A stretch of 64,000 nucleotides of DNA from Catenisphaera adipataccumulans. Lineage in GTDB: Bacteria; Bacillota_I; Bacilli_A; Erysipelotrichales; Erysipelotrichaceae. The position numbers and the translations under genes are program-made. This document shows, in pieces, positions 32,958 to 41,563 of the stretch. The stretch spans positions 124,001 to 188,000 of the forward strand of contig NZ_JACHHK010000002.1 in NCBI RefSeq assembly GCF_014202755.1. Direction: 5' to 3'. Every line of letters starts with the position of its first letter. The stretch's first letter is position 1. The notes below the pieces were generated by a model. The model was not told the origin of the DNA and did no database searches. It worked only from the letters and a program-made list of their open reading frames with translations.

Positions 32958-32998
32958 GGAGCCATTATAGCACAACGACGGTCACGGCCGTCGTTGTT
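32958..32998 (-). promoter_or_regulatory. Esterase promoter overlapping a hairpin at the end of the PfkB gene
   Basis: TGC-TATAAT (-10 at 32969-32964) lies 6 nt before the esterase ATG. Immediately upstream is the inverted repeat ACAACGACGG (32972-32981)/CCGTCGTTGT (32988-32997), whose loop contains the PfkB stop codon. No T-run follows, so it is not a classical terminator. Confidence 0.6.
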
Positions 32999-33836
32999 TT
33001 ACGTCTTCAAGCGTCGGGATGGAAGGCATGCCGCCGGCTTTTTCTGTAGAAATCGCCGCAGCCAGACCGGCCAGTTCCAGACTTTCCGGCACGGACATCC
33101 TCTGATCCAATCCGTACGCAAAGGCACCATGAAACACATCGCCGGCGCCGGTCGTGTCCAGCGTTTTGGCTTGATAAGCCGGATGCAGCCGTCCGTTATT
33201 GATCCAGCCTTTTTCGCCGACCGTTAAGATCACATGGCGTGCCAAAGGCTGCAGCTGAGCATAAGTTGTTTCATCGGTTTCATGACCAGTGATCTGGGCA
33301 GCGAACTCTTCGCTGCAGATCAGATGATCGACACGTTTCAATAAGTCCATGGAATGCGGCTTGACGCGGTCGCCGTCCCAGACGATTTGCGCATTTGGAT
33401 ACCGCTGCATGGCTTCGCGGCACAACGGCAGCTCATGTCCGTCCATGAGGATCACATCGACGTGTTCCGGCCAGGTCACCGGCAGGACGTGCGCTTCGCT
33501 TAACGGGATGTTCACGATGGTGCGGCTGCCGTTTTGTAGGTTGACCAGAATGCTGCTGGTGCTGGTTTTGGTCTGCTCGTCCACGAGCATCGTTTCGGTA
33601 TGCACGCCGACCTTTGTCAGCGTATCGAGGATCGCCTGGCCGGCGGCATCCTTGCCGATGCGTGCGCATAAATATGTATCGGCATGCCACAGGCCGCATA
33701 AATAAGCCGCATTGGCTGCCGGTCCGCCCATGCAGGAAAAACCGTTGACAGCGCGGCGTTTTTCATTTTCTTTGAGCGGTGAATCGATCGGCAGCACCGT
33801 ATCGTACACCGTCTGTCCTAAACATAAGATCGTCAT
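32982..33836 (-). CDS. PfkB-family carbohydrate kinase
   Basis: A 284-residue ribokinase-type sugar kinase. The N-terminal GGPAANAAYLCGLW motif and the C-terminal DTTGAGDVFHGAFAYGL signature with the catalytic Asp are clear, and a GEKGW segment precedes the ATP site. The substrate sugar or nucleoside cannot be named. On the minus strand TGG-TAATAT (hexamer 33848-33843) lies 6 nt before the ATG at 33836, again a leaderless layout, and no ribosome site is seen. It is followed by the esterase gene, which has its own -10. Confidence 0.87.
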   Translation of the reverse strand: MTILCLGQTVYDTVLPIDSPLKENEKRRAVNGFSCMGGPAANAAYLCGLWHADTYLCARIGKDAAGQAILDTLTKVGVHTETMLVDEQTKTSTSSILVNLQNGSRTIVNIPLSEAHVLPVTWPEHVDVILMDGHELPLCREAMQRYPNAQIVWDGDRVKPHSMDLLKRVDHLICSEEFAAQITGHETDETTYAQLQPLARHVILTVGEKGWINNGRLHPAYQAKTLDTTGAGDVFHGAFAYGLDQRMSVPESLELAGLAAAISTEKAGGMPSIPTLEDVKQRRP

Positions 33837-33842
33837 ACCTAT

Positions 33843-33888
33843 ATATTACCAGATTGTAAATAATCATAGAAAAAATTATAATATGACT
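33843..33888. promoter_or_regulatory. Back-to-back leaderless promoters (PfkB gene and 801-residue protein gene)
   Basis: Leftward: TGG-TAATAT with the -10 at 33848-33843, ATG at 33836. Rightward: TATAAT 33877-33882, then 6 nt (which themselves hold another ATG) and ATG 33889. Only 52 nt separate the two start codons and neither side has a ribosome site. Confidence 0.6.
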
Positions 33889-36294
33889 ATGAAATCATTG
33901 GATCTTATCGAAAATTGGAAGCTTTGTGACTTCCGTTATTGTCCGCAAATTGTGCAGATGCTGATCGTTCATCAAATCTCTGTACACTGGCCGGATGACA
34001 AACTGGCAGAAGCCTGCCGCAAGGTATTTACGCAGCCGGTCTGTGATGAAGTGATGGCTTTGGCCCGTGAACATCGTTCGGCGATCGATCAATGTCAGGG
34101 CATCCATGGCAACAGTGTTTATGTGCTGCTGAATTATGGACTGACCCGTCCGGTCATCAAGGAACATCTGTACGGCCGTGCCGATCTGGAAGATGTGCTG
34201 TTCATGAAACAGGATGAAATCATGCGTACGCTTCATGTATCGGTTTATACAGGCCGCAAGATCATTGCCGCCTGCCGGTTTGCGCTGCATGACTTGGTCG
34301 AAGATGATGTCAAGGCCAAGCAGGATGTCCTGTGCGATGACTTGGAGATCTTCTTTTCCAGCCTGGATGCGCCTGCTGATCTGCAGACGATCAAAGAAGG
34401 CATGCTTTGGCGCAGCGGCGATGCCCTGCTGAACGACCTGCTGAACGACTTGTGTGACAGCCGGATCATTTCCCGCAGCGGGGATCAGTATCAGTATATC
34501 GATAAAAAACCAAGCCTGAGCACGGTCCTTGACCAGATGGAAGATGAAAAGGAACAAAAGGCCGCCGTGCGTCTGCTTTACGGCAAGTCCGTCAGCCGCC
34601 ATCAGGAAGCCATCGCCCGGGCAGCGATCTTTGCGCTGCCGCCGGTCGCGGAAGACAAATACATCGATTTGATCCAAACCTATGATATCAGCGAAACGGT
34701 CTTCTATCAGATCACCAATGCGCTGGAACCGACCTACCGCTACCTGCAGATCCGCTATCCGGTTTCTGAACCAAAACAGCCGGTCACCGGCCGGACCTTA
34801 TCCGGGCCGATCCGTCAGGAACGCACGGTCGATCTAAAAAAACTTCAGAAGTATCTGGAGAAAGAATATTTTCCATACAATGAAACGTGGATCTCCAAGG
34901 AAGATCGTGGTGAATTGTTACGTGAAGTCTGCCGCAGTTTTGACGGCTATTTTTCCAAAGAACAGCTCATTCAGCGGTTCAACGATGTGGTTGCCAAGGT
35001 CCGTCCGGAACGTATGGCACAATGGCGTTTGGATGATTTCCGTGCCGACCGGATCAGCCTGCGGGGATATTTGGTCACTTCGATGAAACGCGGCATTCGT
35101 TATCGGCCGGTCAATGCGGATTTTGTACAGGCGCTGATCGATGATCTGGATATCATGAAATACCGCAATACGGTGCTCTCTGCCAAAAAGCTCTTTGACG
35201 AAGCGCCGAACATCATGGAAAAATACGATATCCGCGATCAATATGAACTGCATTCGATCCTGCGGATCGCCAAGGAGACCTATGCGGTCGAGATCAACCG
35301 CTGGTCCATTGTCCATACGCCGATGATCCAGTTCGGCAGCGGTGATGAAGATCAGATCATCGAAGAAGAGATCCGGCAGCTGGCGCCGATCTCGGTGCAG
35401 AACTTTGTCCGCCGCATGTGCCGGCGTTACGGCTATGATACCGGGACATTTACGAAGTATTTATATAAAAATTTCAGTTCGTATATCCATGACCGCATTC
35501 TCGACTGCGTCGATACCGCGGTGATGGAAAGCGAGGACTATCAGACGTTCAAAGGTATTTTGACCGAGGATTTCTATTTCAGTGAAGACGTCAAAAAGCT
35601 GCTCAAGGAACACGATCTGCCGGCTTCGCTGAACGATCCGTACGTGCTGCGCCGTTTAGGTTATAAATGCCATTCCGGCTATATTTTGAAAGACAAATAC
35701 AATGGTCTGCAGTATTTCCGGCAGCGCATCCTCGATGATCCGGATCTGGTCCTGTCACCGAAATACAATCGAATCTGGTCTTTTGCGTCGGTAGCGAACC
35801 AGATGGAACAGAATCTGGAGATCGTTGAGGTCGACCGCAATGAATACCGCACACCGGCACAGCTAGGTCTGCGGAAAAAGGAACTGCGTACATTTGCGCG
35901 CAATGTGATCAATTACGTCGAAGCCGATACGTATTTCAACGATGCCTCTTTGGCAGCCGACCGCATCGCGCAGAGTGCTTACTCGAATACATTTTATAAA
36001 TCACTGCTGAAATCTGATCCGCAGATCCGGAGCATTTCCATCAACCACGTTTGGGTGTTCAAAAAATCGAAGAAGGATGCCTCGATCGGCGAATTCCTGC
36101 GTTCGATCATCGTGGACCGGATGACGATCAGCGGTTTGTGCACAGTATTGAAAGAACGTTTTGATATCGATATGGAAAAGGGCGAAGTGATGCGCGCTTT
36201 GCGCCAATCCGGCATTTATTACAGCGCCGATACCGAACGCATCTATCGGCAGCGGCCGCCGGAAACCACCTATGCGCAGGAAAGGCTGTTTTAA
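33889..36294 (+). CDS. Large protein of unknown function (801 residues)
   Basis: I do not recognise this protein. It is soluble, helical and rich in charged residues, without signal peptide or membrane helices. Parts look like DNA-binding or winged-helix modules: YGRADLEDVLFMKQDEIMRTLHVSVYTGRKII (around 95-125, resembling a helix-hairpin-helix step), a wing-like SRSGDQYQYIDKKPSLS (around 198), and a last domain with IGEFLRSIIVDRMTISGLCTVLKERFDI and a final wing. A linker with proline and threonine lies near residue 300. ATG 33889 is 6 nt after TATAAT (33877-33882), so the mRNA is probably leaderless; an ATG 6 nt earlier is possible. It shares a 1-nt TAATG junction with the Sel1 gene and may lead the TldD operon. 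Confidence 0.85.
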   Translation: MKSLDLIENWKLCDFRYCPQIVQMLIVHQISVHWPDDKLAEACRKVFTQPVCDEVMALAREHRSAIDQCQGIHGNSVYVLLNYGLTRPVIKEHLYGRADLEDVLFMKQDEIMRTLHVSVYTGRKIIAACRFALHDLVEDDVKAKQDVLCDDLEIFFSSLDAPADLQTIKEGMLWRSGDALLNDLLNDLCDSRIISRSGDQYQYIDKKPSLSTVLDQMEDEKEQKAAVRLLYGKSVSRHQEAIARAAIFALPPVAEDKYIDLIQTYDISETVFYQITNALEPTYRYLQIRYPVSEPKQPVTGRTLSGPIRQERTVDLKKLQKYLEKEYFPYNETWISKEDRGELLREVCRSFDGYFSKEQLIQRFNDVVAKVRPERMAQWRLDDFRADRISLRGYLVTSMKRGIRYRPVNADFVQALIDDLDIMKYRNTVLSAKKLFDEAPNIMEKYDIRDQYELHSILRIAKETYAVEINRWSIVHTPMIQFGSGDEDQIIEEEIRQLAPISVQNFVRRMCRRYGYDTGTFTKYLYKNFSSYIHDRILDCVDTAVMESEDYQTFKGILTEDFYFSEDVKKLLKEHDLPASLNDPYVLRRLGYKCHSGYILKDKYNGLQYFRQRILDDPDLVLSPKYNRIWSFASVANQMEQNLEIVEVDRNEYRTPAQLGLRKKELRTFARNVINYVEADTYFNDASLAADRIAQSAYSNTFYKSLLKSDPQIRSISINHVWVFKKSKKDASIGEFLRSIIVDRMTISGLCTVLKERFDIDMEKGEVMRALRQSGIYYSADTERIYRQRPPETTYAQERLF

Positions 36295-37010
36295 TGGCAG
36301 AAGAATTTAACATGCAGCTGGTCAAACAGCTGAAGGAACAAAAAAAATATACCGAGCTCTACCGGTACTGCCGCACGTATGCGCTGCAGAATAATCTGGA
36401 TGCGATCTGTGAGCTGGCCGGCTGTTTCTATCACGGCTGGGGAACCGCAAAAAATGAGCAGGAAAGCGCCCTGCTGGATTATCAGGCGGCCAAATGCGGC
36501 CATGTGAAATCCATCTATAATTTGGCTGTTGATTATGAACAAGGCATCGGGGTCATGAAAAATCCCGAAAAAGCCAAAGAATTATATGATCTGGCCGCCA
36601 AACAAGGCGATACCGATGCGATGTTCAGCTTGGGCATGTGTTATTTTCATGGTCACGGCACGGCGAAAAGCCTGCGGCAGGCATTGGATTGCTTCAGTGA
36701 AGCAGCCGCCTGCGGCCATGCCCGGGCCCAGTGCGCACTGGGATTCTGCTACCGGGAAGGATTAGGAACCAAGAAGGATCTGATCAAATCGGATTACTGG
36801 CTGAATCTGGCGGCAGATAACGGCAATGCGCTGGCGGCCAAATATGTGGATCGGGATGTTTATAAGGAAGAGATCCACGAGGCGCTGGATTCCATGTTGG
36901 CGGATGCGAAGAACATTGCGCCGCTTTTGAAACAGCACGGTGATGAAATGATCGAGGCGAAGATCGAACGGATCATTGCCTTGTTACGGAAGCATCAGCA
37001 GGAGGCATAG
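36294..37010 (+). CDS. Sel1-like repeat protein
   Basis: A 238-residue protein built of Sel1-like (TPR-type) repeats. The consensus A-x-x-x-L-G-x-x-Y-x-x-G-x-G is seen in AICELAGCFYHGWGTAK, SIYNLAVDYEQGIGVMK, AMFSLGMCYFHGHGTAK and AQCALGFCYREGLGTKK, giving about four to five repeats over residues 35-185, followed by a helical C-terminus. No signal peptide: a cytoplasmic scaffold is likely. Its ATG overlaps the stop of the unknown 801-residue protein (TAATG) and tldD starts 3 nt after its stop, so it couples the two; a partner role is inferred. Confidence 0.88.
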   Translation: MAEEFNMQLVKQLKEQKKYTELYRYCRTYALQNNLDAICELAGCFYHGWGTAKNEQESALLDYQAAKCGHVKSIYNLAVDYEQGIGVMKNPEKAKELYDLAAKQGDTDAMFSLGMCYFHGHGTAKSLRQALDCFSEAAACGHARAQCALGFCYREGLGTKKDLIKSDYWLNLAADNGNALAAKYVDRDVYKEEIHEALDSMLADAKNIAPLLKQHGDEMIEAKIERIIALLRKHQQEA

Positions 37011-37012
37011 AA

Positions 37013-38395
37013 ATGTTAGATCAGGAAATGTTGGAAATGATTCTTTCGCGGGCGATGCAGAGCGAGGCGGATTTCGCGGAAGTTTTTGAAGAAGATACCA
37101 TGTCCGAATCCATTTCGGCTTTGAATGAGAACGTTGAAAAGGTCGATCGGTCCCGGCGGGCCGGCATCGGGATCCGTTTATATCAGGGAAACCGGTCGGT
37201 CTATGGCTACAGTACCGAATGTGACAAAGACTCCTTGTTGGCGTTGGTGGATGAGCTGCGGGACGGTTTTGGCCGGAAGGAGACGAATACGATCGTCGAT
37301 CTGCAGAAGCAGACCTATCCGGCCGATGCCGCTGTCGATCCGGTCGAGGCGCCGCTGCAGGATAAGATCAACTTGATGAAACGGGCGGAACAGACGGCGA
37401 TGGCTTATGATGCGCGGATCGTCAAAGTACAGACCGCCATGGCCAATGTCCGGCAGACCGTTCAAATTGCCAACAGTACCGGTCGGCTGGTGCAGGATAC
37501 CCGGATCCGGACACGCCTGATGGTGCATGCCTATGCGCAGGAAGACGATCGGCTGCGTTCCGGTTTTCATGGACCGGGCGCCGGCAAGGGGCTGGAATTT
37601 TACGAAGAAGCCACACCGGAAGCCATCGCCAAGGAAGCCTGCCGGGTGGCGCTGGTGATGTTGGAGGCGGAAGAATGCCCGTCCGGCCGGATGCCGGTCA
37701 TCATCGACAACGGCTTCGGCGGTGTGATCTTCCATGAAGCCTGCGGCCATTCGCTGGAAGCCACGGCGGTCGCCAAACATCAAAGCGTATTTGCGGACAA
37801 ACTGGGCAAACAGATCGCCAATCGCTGTGTCACGGCGATCGATGACGGTACGATCCCAGGCGCCTGGGGCAGTCAGCACGTTGATGATGAGGGCAATCCG
37901 CAGCAGAAACGGGTCTTGATTTCCCACGGCATTTTGAAATCCTATATGATCGATCAGCTGAACGGCCGCCGCATGGGCATGCCTTCTACAGGCTCCGGCC
38001 GCCGGCAGTCGTACCGGTATGAACCGACCAGCCGCATGTCCAATACCTATATCGCGCCGGGCAAATCGACCATGGCAGAAATGCTTGAAGGCATCGAAAA
38101 AGGGCTTTATGCCAAGAAGATGGGCGGCGGCAGCGTGAATCCGCAGACCGGTGAATTCAACTTTGCGGTCAATGAAGGCTATTTGATCGAAAACGGCAAG
38201 ATCACCAAACCGGTGCGCGGTGCGTCTTTGATCGGCACCGGTGCGGAGATCTTGATGAATATTGATAAGGTCGGTGCCAATGTGGCCCGGGCGCAGGGAA
38301 TGTGCGGCTCGGTCAGCGGCAATATTCCGGTGGATGTCGGACAGCCGACGATCCGGGTCTCGTCGATCACGGTCGGAGGCACCAAGAGTGAGTGA
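37013..38395 (+). CDS. tldD: TldD metalloprotease subunit
   Basis: A 460-residue TldD, the zinc-protease subunit of the TldD/TldE heterodimer that trims unfolded or modified peptides. The metal motif is FHEACGHSLEA (HExxxH, around residue 242), and GSGRRQSYRYEPTSRMSNTYI and GGGSVNPQTGEFNF are family landmarks. The start has GGAGG ahead of it and only 3 nt from the Sel1 stop. The partner TldE is encoded next with an 8-nt overlap, but as part of an HD fusion. In other bacteria the pair matures peptides such as microcins; no peptide substrate gene is evident nearby. Confidence 0.94.
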   Translation: MLDQEMLEMILSRAMQSEADFAEVFEEDTMSESISALNENVEKVDRSRRAGIGIRLYQGNRSVYGYSTECDKDSLLALVDELRDGFGRKETNTIVDLQKQTYPADAAVDPVEAPLQDKINLMKRAEQTAMAYDARIVKVQTAMANVRQTVQIANSTGRLVQDTRIRTRLMVHAYAQEDDRLRSGFHGPGAGKGLEFYEEATPEAIAKEACRVALVMLEAEECPSGRMPVIIDNGFGGVIFHEACGHSLEATAVAKHQSVFADKLGKQIANRCVTAIDDGTIPGAWGSQHVDDEGNPQQKRVLISHGILKSYMIDQLNGRRMGMPSTGSGRRQSYRYEPTSRMSNTYIAPGKSTMAEMLEGIEKGLYAKKMGGGSVNPQTGEFNFAVNEGYLIENGKITKPVRGASLIGTGAEILMNIDKVGANVARAQGMCGSVSGNIPVDVGQPTIRVSSITVGGTKSE

Positions 38396-40133
38396 GGCCG
38401 AAAAGGCACACGCATGGGCGCGGCAGGCACATGCCGGACAAGTCGATCGGGCCGGTGTTCCTTATATCAAACATGCAGAAGCGGTAGCGGAAGCCATGAA
38501 TACGGATCAGGAAAAGGTGGCTGCTTATCTGCATGATGTGCTGGAAGATACCGATACGACCGTTGAAGATCTGAAACAGGCGGGATTTTCGGCCGAGGTC
38601 ATTGAGACGGTCAGGATCCTGACGCGTCAAGACGAATCTTATGAAACCTATATCCAACGGGTCGCCGAGCATCCACTGGCGGCCCGGATCAAGCGGGCAG
38701 ACCTGATCCACAATATGGATCTTAGCCGTCTGCCGGAAGTCAGGCCGAACGACAGGACACGTACGGAAAAATACCGGCGTGCTTTGCGTCAGCTGGAAAG
38801 GAAACATATGAACAAAGAACTGTGGTTTAAGAAAGCGAAAGAAAAAGGCTTTGACGGGCTGGAAATCTATCAGTCTTTTCTGAAGGGAAAAGAAATGACA
38901 TGGTATGAACATGCGATGGATTCCTATACGATCAAACAAAGTACGGACTACTCCATCCGGGCGTTGATCGACGGACATATTGCCAATCTGGCGGCCGAAA
39001 AGATCGACGATCAGGATGCCGATGCCGTTTTGGATGCATTGAAGGAGCAGGCGCAGACGGTGACCGATCCGGATGAAGGCGTGATCCGAAAACCGCTGCC
39101 GGTCAAGCAGACACCGCGGCATCTTATTTGGAAAAAAGCGCCGTCGGCATTGATCAAACAAACGCTGGATGATCTGCAGACGAAGCTGGAAACATATGAT
39201 CCGCGCATTGTTCAGGTTTCTTATCTGGGGTACAGTGAAACCGAAGCCGGACGGTCGATCGTCAATTCCTACGGCATCGATCTGTCCGATCAGGAAGAAG
39301 CGCAGTTTCTGCAGGCCGGCATTGCCGTACAGGAAGGCGATCAGGTCAAGACCGGCGATCTGCTGAAGATCGTACCGGATCTGAGCGCGTTTGATACCGA
39401 TGCGTTCGTGCAGGAACTGGCGGACAAGGCGTTGTTCCGGCTGCAGGGACAGTCGCCGAAAAGCGGCCGGTTCCCGGTGATCTTTGAACGGGAAGCGATG
39501 ACGCAGCTGTTTGCGGCGTTTACCGGCCTGTTCAGCGGGGACTTGATCTATAAAGGAATTTCCCCGATCGCAGGCAAGCAGGGCGAAACGATTTTCTCGG
39601 ATCAGATCACGATCATCGATGATCCGCAGGAACAAGCAGCATTGTCTCAGGCGGATTTTGATGATGAAGGGTGCCCGACACAGAAAACCGTTTTGGTCAA
39701 AGACGGTGTCTTTACGAATATGCTTCTGGATTCCAAGAGTGCCAAGCGGATCGGTGCGGAAAGTACGGGCAACGGCTTTAAGGCCGGTGCCGCTATTTCG
39801 GTCCAGCCGATGAACTGTCAGATCGTTCCGGGCACGGACAGCCTGGAGGAATTGTGTGCGAAGATGCACGATGGCATCGTGGTCACAAGGCTGCAGGGGC
39901 TGCATGCCGGTCTGGATTTTGTCTCCGGCAACTTCAGCCTGCAGTGTTCCGGCTATCTGGTCAAGGATGGGAAAAAGGCGCAGGCGGCGGAATTGATGAC
40001 TGTTGCCGGTAATTTCCTGGATCTGATGAAGCGGGTAAAAGCAGTTGGCAATGATCTGAAATGGGAGTATCATCAAATCATCGCACCAAGTATTTGGTTC
40101 GAAGAATGTGCCGTAAGCGGCGAAGGAGAATAA
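38388..40133 (+). CDS. tldE: HD (ppGpp-hydrolase-like) domain fused to TldE/PmbA
   Basis: A 581-residue fusion. Residues 1-140 are an HD domain of the RelA/SpoT/Mesh1 hydrolase type: VPYIKHAEAVA (His29), AAYLHDVLEDTDTT (His49-Asp50, Glu53-Asp54) and IKRADLIHNM (Asp105, Asn109). Residues 141-581 are a full-length TldE, starting MNKELWFKKAKEKGFDGLEIYQS; as expected for TldE there is no HExxxH. The GTG start at 38388 has GGAGG (38375-38379) 8 nt upstream and overlaps tldD. The internal ATG at 38808 has its own AAAGGAA site, so a separate 441-residue TldE may also be made from the same frame. No stop lies between the two domains. Confidence 0.85.
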   Translation: MSEAEKAHAWARQAHAGQVDRAGVPYIKHAEAVAEAMNTDQEKVAAYLHDVLEDTDTTVEDLKQAGFSAEVIETVRILTRQDESYETYIQRVAEHPLAARIKRADLIHNMDLSRLPEVRPNDRTRTEKYRRALRQLERKHMNKELWFKKAKEKGFDGLEIYQSFLKGKEMTWYEHAMDSYTIKQSTDYSIRALIDGHIANLAAEKIDDQDADAVLDALKEQAQTVTDPDEGVIRKPLPVKQTPRHLIWKKAPSALIKQTLDDLQTKLETYDPRIVQVSYLGYSETEAGRSIVNSYGIDLSDQEEAQFLQAGIAVQEGDQVKTGDLLKIVPDLSAFDTDAFVQELADKALFRLQGQSPKSGRFPVIFEREAMTQLFAAFTGLFSGDLIYKGISPIAGKQGETIFSDQITIIDDPQEQAALSQADFDDEGCPTQKTVLVKDGVFTNMLLDSKSAKRIGAESTGNGFKAGAAISVQPMNCQIVPGTDSLEELCAKMHDGIVVTRLQGLHAGLDFVSGNFSLQCSGYLVKDGKKAQAAELMTVAGNFLDLMKRVKAVGNDLKWEYHQIIAPSIWFEECAVSGEGE

Positions 40134-40135
40134 AC

Positions 40136-40912
40136 ATGCCAGGTAGTTTCAAAAATACCCAGATGCAGGAAGCCATGCGTGCGTTTCAGGAAAACGGTAC
40201 GCCGGAAAATACCCAGCGTTTGATGGAATGTCTGCTGACAACACGGTTGTTGGCGCCGGCCGAATGGGATAAAGATCCGGTGATGGATGAAAACGGACAG
40301 ATGGTTTTTGAACCGGATACGAAGTTTCAATTATTGTTGATCGAAACCGATACCGGCGATCAGTACTTTCCATTGTTTACCGATATGCAGGAGCTGGAAA
40401 AATGGGATAAGAACCATGAGCTGCAGTCGCTGGTCATGGAATTTGATCAATATATTCCGTTTGTGGAAATGGGCAAGGGCCAGGTCAAGGGGATCGTGAT
40501 CGATCCTTATGGAGCCTCGCTGCCGTTTGACAGCGATTTCCTGCTGAATCTGCAGCACCAGACCGATCAGCAGCTCAAGGAAACGACTGTCAAGGAAGGC
40601 GACGATATCCGTGTGCGCAAGCCGGTGCGCAATGTCGACAAATTTGTGGCACGTCTGCGCGAACTGGGCGCGGACAGTCCGGATATCGATGCGATATATT
40701 TAAAAGAGCGGCTGGTCAAAAACAAGCCGAGCCATTGGCTGGTCATTGTCGATATGGAGACGGAAAACACGAAGCTGTTCCAGAAGTTAGGCGAAGGCTG
40801 CCGGGGCATGACCTACGGCAAAGATATGGAATTTGCGTTTGCCAAGACCCAGATCGGTCAGGAACTGATCAAGGATGTGGAGCCGATTTATGTGAAGGAA
40901 CCATCGGAATGA
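40136..40912 (+). CDS. SseB-like protein
   Basis: A 258-residue cytoplasmic protein resembling SseB (enhanced serine sensitivity) proteins: an N-terminal SseB-type domain with LMECLLTTRLLAPAEWDKDP and PLFTDMQELEKWD, a middle GIVIDPYGASLPF, and a C-terminal domain with ESRL-like repeats (DAIYLKERLVKNKPSHWLVIVDMET). The biochemical role of SseB is not established. AAGGAG precedes ATG 40136, 2 nt after the HD-TldE stop, so it is the last gene of that operon. Its 3' end overlaps the convergent TetR gene by 25 nt. Confidence 0.8.
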   Translation: MPGSFKNTQMQEAMRAFQENGTPENTQRLMECLLTTRLLAPAEWDKDPVMDENGQMVFEPDTKFQLLLIETDTGDQYFPLFTDMQELEKWDKNHELQSLVMEFDQYIPFVEMGKGQVKGIVIDPYGASLPFDSDFLLNLQHQTDQQLKETTVKEGDDIRVRKPVRNVDKFVARLRELGADSPDIDAIYLKERLVKNKPSHWLVIVDMETENTKLFQKLGEGCRGMTYGKDMEFAFAKTQIGQELIKDVEPIYVKEPSE

Positions 40913-41457
40913 TGGTTCTTTTCTTTTGTGTAGAGTTTCTCCAACATCTCTGCCGCCTGGGTGCTGATTTCTTCAACGGGTTCGGCAAAGTCGCGGCTGG
41001 CCCACTGGAAGACCAGTGAAACGCAGCCGCCGACCGCAAACTCATGGATATAACGGACTTGATCGCCGGCTTCCTTGCCCCAGTTGACCTGGATGTCTTT
41101 GGCAATGGCCAGAAACCGCTGCTCCAATATGAAGAACAAGTTGTTCCGATAGAGGAGGGCAAGCCGTTCCCGGTACGTCTTGCAGAACAAGAAAAAATAA
41201 TAGCTGTATTCGGCAAAGGTGGGATCTTTCGGACAGTTTTTCAAGAACGACGCAAAGAAAGCGTCCATATTGTATTGCAGGACATCTGCGATCGTTTCGA
41301 AATTGCGGTAAAAGGTCTTGCGGCCGACCCCGGCATGCCGGCATAATTCGGTGACGCTGATGTCGGTATAAGAGCGTGTTTTCATCAAGTCATAGAGACT
41401 GCGGCCGATGAGTGTCTGGGAACGGATGGCGACCGGATTGGTTTGTTTTGTGTACAT
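40888..41457 (-). CDS. TetR-family transcriptional regulator
   Basis: A 189-residue TetR-like regulator. The helix-turn-helix is in RSYTDISVTELCRHAGVGRKTFYRNFETIADVL (residues ~25-55); the C-terminal half is a helical ligand domain with many aromatics (YSYYFFLFCKTYRERLALLY). ATG 41457 was chosen because the family usually has about 20 residues before the first helix; an upstream ATG at 41517, only about 10 nt from the -10, would add 20 residues. It is divergent from glgB and likely binds the palindrome at 41550-41563. Confidence 0.85.
   Translation of the reverse strand: MYTKQTNPVAIRSQTLIGRSLYDLMKTRSYTDISVTELCRHAGVGRKTFYRNFETIADVLQYNMDAFFASFLKNCPKDPTFAEYSYYFFLFCKTYRERLALLYRNNLFFILEQRFLAIAKDIQVNWGKEAGDQVRYIHEFAVGGCVSLVFQWASRDFAEPVEEISTQAAEMLEKLYTKEKNHHSDGSFT
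40898..40922 (+). terminator. Terminator after the SseB-like gene
   Basis: GAACCATC (40898-40905)/GATGGTTC (40911-40918) followed by TTTTCTTTT; the stop codon lies in the hairpin. Confidence 0.75.
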
Positions 41458-41503
41458 GGATTGACCCACTTTCTTTCGTTTTGTATCAGTTGCACCGGAT
41501 GTA

Positions 41504-41563
41504 TTGAATCTGTGCATCCTCAATGCTATTATATCTGTAGATAGAAAGTGACACAAGTGTGTC
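41504..41563. promoter_or_regulatory. Face-to-face TetR/glgB promoters sharing one -10 region, with palindrome
   Basis: Rightward: TTGAAT 41504-41509, 17-nt spacer, TGC-TATTAT 41527-41532. Leftward: TTGTGT (41556-41551), 17-nt spacer, TATAAT (41533-41528). The two -10 boxes overlap almost fully, so only one promoter can be used at a time. A perfect palindrome GACACA-ag-TGTGTC (41550-41563) covers the leftward -35 and lies in the glgB 5' UTR, a good TetR operator. Confidence 0.75.

Follow-up and report, generated by a model that had tools for sequence, protein, structure and literature searches.

Do the five closely packed genes found in one stretch of the Catenisphaera adipataccumulans chromosome act together, or do they only stand together? 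The stretch, hereafter the window, comprises 64,000 nucleotides (nt) of contig NZ_JACHHK010000002.1 (positions 124,001 to 188,000 of the forward strand; assembly GCF_014202755.1); the contig measures 400 kb, the assembly 2.0 Mb, and the host is a gut bacterium. On its + strand, positions 33889-40912 encode, in this order, a large protein, a Sel1-repeat protein, TldD, a TldE preceded by an HD domain (HD-TldE) and an SseB-family protein. The answer that we favour, with a confidence that is about even, is a housekeeping tldD-tldE-sseB operon which would have recruited, ahead of tldD, a large protein of tandem winged helices and its coupled Sel1 protein, from a family otherwise tied to defence islands, and in which a complete small alarmone hydrolase would have been inserted in frame at the tldE start codon.

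The five-gene unit and its conservation

By checking the open reading frames and the families of their products, we obtained the following layout.

33889..36294, + strand, large protein, 801 aa; ATG at 33889, alternative ATG at 33883
36294..37010, + strand, Sel1-repeat protein, 238 aa; 1-nt overlap with the large gene (TAATG)
37013..38395, + strand, TldD metallopeptidase subunit; 2-nt gap after sel1
38388..40133, + strand, HD-TldE; 8-nt overlap with tldD, GTGAGTGA
40136..40912, + strand, SseB-family protein; 2-nt gap after HD-tldE; PF07179 and PF14581

The spacings are -1 (large/sel1), +2 (sel1/tldD), -8 (tldD/HD-tldE) and +2 nt (HD-tldE/sseB), and plausible Shine-Dalgarno sequences lie ahead of the last four genes. 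A divergent PfkB-family kinase gene (32982-33836, - strand) flanks the unit on the left and a convergent TetR-type regulator gene (about 40888-41556, - strand) on the right. A first-pass annotation, made from the letters alone, had described an operon-like run here; the spacings, the opposite-strand flanks and the promoter- and terminator-like ends agree with it. Nor is the gene order unique to one genome, the point on which that annotation had staked its idea, since the large gene is retained here in two other genera as well. Judged from sequence, a real operon is well supported; the conservation of gene order in other genera makes the unit more than a chance one, and all five genes are probably read as a single transcript.

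The identities given earlier to TldD, to TldE with its HD domain, to Sel1 and to SseB were confirmed by Pfam, structure matches and motifs, and are well supported. TldD keeps its zinc ligands (HEACGH, residues 241-246), its Cys431 aligns to the GVCG of E. coli TldD, and it matches the E. coli TldD structure 5nj5_A with E=1.9e-93. TldE is, as expected, the paralogue without HExxxH encoded beside tldD. E. coli TldD/TldE (PmbA; PDB 5nj5) likewise combines a TldD bearing HExxxH and a C-terminal Cys with a TldE lacking HExxxH (PMC5810440), but in the window TldE has an N-terminal HD domain and the operon adds a winged-helix protein, Sel1 and SseB. The SseB protein has both the N- and C-terminal SseB domains of its family (E=3e-25 and 4e-18). 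As for E. coli sseB, which adjoins pepB, a peptidase gene is adjacent; here, unlike in E. coli, sseB is a member of a tldDE operon, and its molecular function is putative in either organism. The parts of the operon are of known kinds and their combination is unusual: the most unusual point is the zero-linker fusion of an alarmone hydrolase to TldE, with the finding of a defence-island family member inside a peptidase operon in second place.

How widely is this arrangement found? In a profile search of 315 genomes of the order, full-length orthologues of the large protein were returned from three, namely the window genome, G050 and G012, which represent three genera of Erysipelotrichaceae (besides the window genome, the carriers go by the names of Faecalitalea sp. 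UBA4312 and, for a metagenome-assembled genome (MAG) from rumen, Erysipelothrix). The large gene lies at the tldD-tldE locus in 3/3 carriers, in one of them across a contig break: G050 has the order large-sel1-nanE-tldD-tldE; in G012, large-nanE stands at a contig end and nanE-tldD-tldE-sseB opens another contig, the NanE gene being cut between the two. Besides the window locus, we surveyed 30 tldDE loci of the family, including those of G050 and G012. There, sseB directly follows tldE in 15 and nanE lies upstream of tldD in 10, which argues that the older unit would be tldD-tldE, to which sseB and nanE are often joined; a few genera would more likely have gained the large gene and sel1 later. 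We considered nanE, which stands between sel1 and tldD in G050, as a part of the system and set it aside as a loose neighbour absent from the window locus; NanE matches are present elsewhere in the window genome.

The Sel1 protein is made of tandem Sel1 repeats in three stretches (Pfam Sel1 E=2.4e-27), and besides the window its orthologue was found in G050 only. The large protein is 42% identical to both its orthologues. Between the window and G050 the proteins are 41-42% identical, yet the large-Sel1 junction is kept: both have an in-gene AGGAAAGG, and in both the stop and start codons share 1 nt, as TAATG or TGATG. The sel1 gene is most probably translationally coupled to the large gene, and this link is conserved.

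Alternatively, the large protein and Sel1 could be functionally unrelated to TldD, TldE and SseB, share a promoter position with them in one lineage and form a chance neighbourhood kept by descent. We give this explanation tentative credence. The large gene is absent from tldDE loci in all but three genomes, a gene often found upstream elsewhere, nanE, itself encodes an unrelated sugar-phosphate enzyme, and the carriers are compatible with one clade. However, three genera have kept the large gene in one and the same position despite its divergence, its translational coupling with sel1 is conserved, and in the window the loss of the intervening nanE has drawn sel1 and tldD closer.

The HD domain joined to TldE

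What precedes TldE in the fourth protein? Three features are needed here.

38388..38807, + strand, small-alarmone-hydrolase (HD_4) domain, residues 1-140 of HD-TldE (Pfam HD_4; HDVLED at 49-54)
38795..38802, + strand, GGAAAGGA, possible internal ribosome-binding site before the old tldE ATG (38808), by sequence
38808..40133, + strand, TldE part, 441 aa, without HExxxH (PmbA_TldD_3rd E=2e-68; 1vl4 E=1e-55)

When aligned with nine relatives and with 7smg, the HD domain proved to be full length, with its H, HD, ED and D metal/catalytic motifs intact, and its best solved relative is 7smg itself, a (p)ppApp hydrolase (E=2.2e-27). Hydrolysis of an alarmone is its probable activity. (p)ppApp, (p)ppGpp and NADPH are all substrates of a related bacterial hydrolase (PMC9765508), and sequence therefore does not single out the one used here. 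With small alarmone hydrolases (PDB 7smg; XccSAH, PMC9765508) the domain shares the same full-length HD_4 and all motifs; whereas those are standalone single-domain proteins, it is in frame with TldE, fused end to start. The tldE genes of relatives begin within the last nucleotides of tldD (ATGAATAA, 8 nt). The HD domain starts exactly at this ancestral overlap and runs in frame, with zero linker, into the old tldE start ATGAACAAA at 38808. We found the fusion in no other sampled genome, whether in the 115-genome family sample, the 80 genomes of the order with a strong TldE match or the 123 genomes of the phylum sample with a match (these samples share genomes, and the window genome is in each of them). 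A further copy of this HD type is absent from the window genome, which otherwise has just a long RelA/SpoT-like frame.

HD-TldE might not be one natural protein, either because a one-base error joined two overlapping genes or because HD and TldE are made separately, with ATG 38808 as an internal start. Were the short A run before CATATG one base shorter, an ATGA overlap would result, the fusion was met in a single genome, the HD part ends at the length of the standalone proteins of its family, and tldE keeps its own start with the possible ribosome-binding site before it. We nonetheless consider this unlikely: the frame is open and aligned to relatives up to the junction, the critical run is merely three A, and the region gave no other hint of a frame error. 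A natural fusion would be a concrete hint that the widespread TldD/E may be linked to nucleotide stress signalling. No description of a TldE-HD fusion was found in the literature searched, of which coverage was partial. Separately, a NUDIX-HD fusion of 332 aa (L076:2598-3596) contains the closest relative found (55%) of the TldE-fused HD domain.

The large protein and its family

Two stretches of the large protein bear on what it may do.

34300..34503, + strand, best supported winged-helix unit, residues 138-205 (VIA-align Z about 9-10)
34540..34638, + strand, degenerate sigma-70 region-4-like stretch, residues 218-250 (alignment with orthologues)

On its own, the large protein gave no acceptable match in Pfam, NCBIfam, PADLOC or PDB sequence searches, and no enzyme domain was detected by sequence searches or in its AlphaFold (AF2) model. 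This model (mean predicted local distance difference test, pLDDT, 76.5) consists of repeated helix-helix-helix-hairpin units, and as a whole had no Foldseek match below E 0.001. Winged helices emerged on re-alignment only, mostly at residues 136-205, other parts being barely tested; the winged helix of residues 138-205 aligns to domains of cullin, SelB, MCM and bacterial regulators. The protein is thereby modelled as a chain of winged-helix-like units, and it may bind nucleic acid. The DNA-binding-like modules suspected in the first-pass annotation were thus recovered, both as winged-helix units in the model and through relatives with a sigma-70 region 4.

The (T/S)R(E/A)RVxQI recognition helix of the region-4-like helix-turn-helix (HTH) is missing in the window copy; G050 and G012 keep a diverged version. 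We saw no sign of a simple frameshift at the shortened HTH when the DNA was read in three frames, and Pfam returned no recognisable sigma-70 region 4 HTH in the large protein. Compared with family members from single genomes, it shows 18-24% identity over its length, with E down to 3e-50. Distant relatives (18-27% identity) have a sigma-70 region 4 with a TRERVRQI motif, often together with RNA polymerase alphaCTD-like domains, and plasmid records label members "sigma factor-like helix-turn-helix DNA-binding protein". We class the window protein as no more than a divergent relative of this alphaCTD/sigma-70 region-4-like HTH family, which as such was not found described in the literature searched, again with partial coverage.

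Elsewhere, family members neighbour Sau3AI/MutH endonucleases, PbeA-matching SNF2-type helicases, RloB/AAA_21, HEPN_Swt1 and HIRAN proteins, and also a Schlafen-type helicase, a BrxP match and a PAPS-reductase-domain protein; others belong to ordinary metabolism. Close to the other members that we examined, no tldD, tldE or sel1 relative was found, and no defence gene lies in the five-gene unit or its immediate flanks examined. Because of these neighbourhoods, an argument from context and not from function, the large protein of the window is most plausibly a family member that would have left the defence setting, and it offers a possible case of co-option, in which a defence-island-tied family has settled in a chromosomal peptidase operon. 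Could it still belong to an anti-phage module, in which TldD/E would trim or release a peptide effector or sensor? By analogy, the Sau3AI/MutH, RloB/AAA, PbeA-like SNF2, HEPN_Swt1 and BrxP neighbours and the Enterococcus plasmid cassettes described below would fit such a role, as would the action of TldD/E on toxin and antitoxin peptides (PMC5810440). But no nuclease, helicase, HEPN or modification gene lies beside the large gene in the window, the protein has no PADLOC match and a shortened sigma-4 HTH core, and no small peptide gene was noticed in the five-gene unit. We find this explanation improbable.

The Enterococcus plasmid HTH protein (e.g. WP_002362439.1) is similar in length to the large protein and homologous to it in the C-terminal half (23-27%); it has a recognisable sigma-4 HTH and is followed by a ~405-aa protein and an SNF2-type helicase, whereas the window copy has a shortened HTH and no such partners. 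This cassette of a sigma-4-like HTH protein, a ~405-aa unknown and an SNF2-type helicase lies at L090:7753-13448 and L091:7621-13296, its HTH protein matches 48 Enterococcus plasmid records, and the three genes look like an unnamed defence module. Other rows were seen. In Lachnospiraceae MAGs, HEPN_Swt1, alphaCTD/sigma-4 and HIRAN proteins are encoded in a tight row (L088:205-5773, L089:3266-9090). In two families, a Sau3AI/MutH endonuclease stands with a sigma-4-like protein, a ~400-aa unknown and a large SNF2-type helicase (L009:4733-12493, L138:2322-9790). On an IMG/VR viral contig, a 1449-aa alphaCTD/sigma-4 protein adjoins a PAPS-reductase-domain protein (L106:3983-10710). Viral contigs held no relative of the three close orthologues and one full-length distant relative, and a phage search gave none.

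Possible joint action and the ends of the unit

The TldD/E heterodimer is known to feed unfolded peptides through a pore and to degrade them in its chamber; it matures microcin B17 and degrades CcdA41, and the cellular role of its genes has been called elusive (PMC5810440). In the recruitment and insertion that we favour, the window TldD/E would take unfolded peptides into its chamber and trim them, and the HD domain, made in a fixed ratio with the peptidase, would remove an alarmone or a related 3'-phosphorylated nucleotide. The winged-helix protein would bind nucleic acid without being an enzyme, and Sel1 would serve it as a protein-docking partner; the tie of the winged-helix protein to TldDE would more probably lie in shared expression than in a fixed complex. 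We infer both the origin by recruitment and any physical contact between the parts.

Several findings weigh against this proposal. First, the AF2 model has a predicted template modelling score (pTM) of 0.39, at which the relative placement of the units is unreliable, and the sigma-4 HTH core of the window copy is ~12 residues shorter than those of its orthologues. Second, across the 30 loci the tldD-tldE-sseB core is widely found where the large gene and Sel1 are absent, no joint-loss pattern links the large protein with the peptidase, and the set at the locus is not fixed, as G012 lacks Sel1 and G050 lacks sseB there. Third, with three orthologues only, the association may be one inherited event: in the TldD+TldE tree the carriers as a single clade were not rejected (p-AU 0.37, approximately unbiased test), the window branch being long and a closer tie to the other two neither shown nor rejected. 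Because the core is so widespread without the large gene, the hypothesis of a joint stress or proteolysis system of the five proteins, put forward in the first-pass annotation, is possible but unproven. A more elaborate version seems to us improbable: the HD domain would couple alarmone turnover to the TldD/E chamber, while the winged-helix protein and Sel1 would bring nucleic-acid-associated substrates or control the operon. Such a stress-linked peptide-clearance system, if true, has not been described before.

Finally, consensus scans marked both ends of the unit.

33854..33882, + strand, promoter-like site TTGTAA-17-TATAAT (10/12 match, tied best of the region)
40894..40922, + strand, terminator-like hairpin and T tract at the end of sseB (consensus scan only)

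The scans returned 12 promoter-like sites where 8.3 were expected. The TATAAT of this site runs right up to the ATGs of the large gene, and the putative transcript may be nearly leaderless. Likewise, TATAATATG stands ahead of the G050 orthologue, where TATAAT abuts the ATG too. At the other end, the tails of sseB and of the convergent TetR-type gene share ~25 nt (window 40888-40912).

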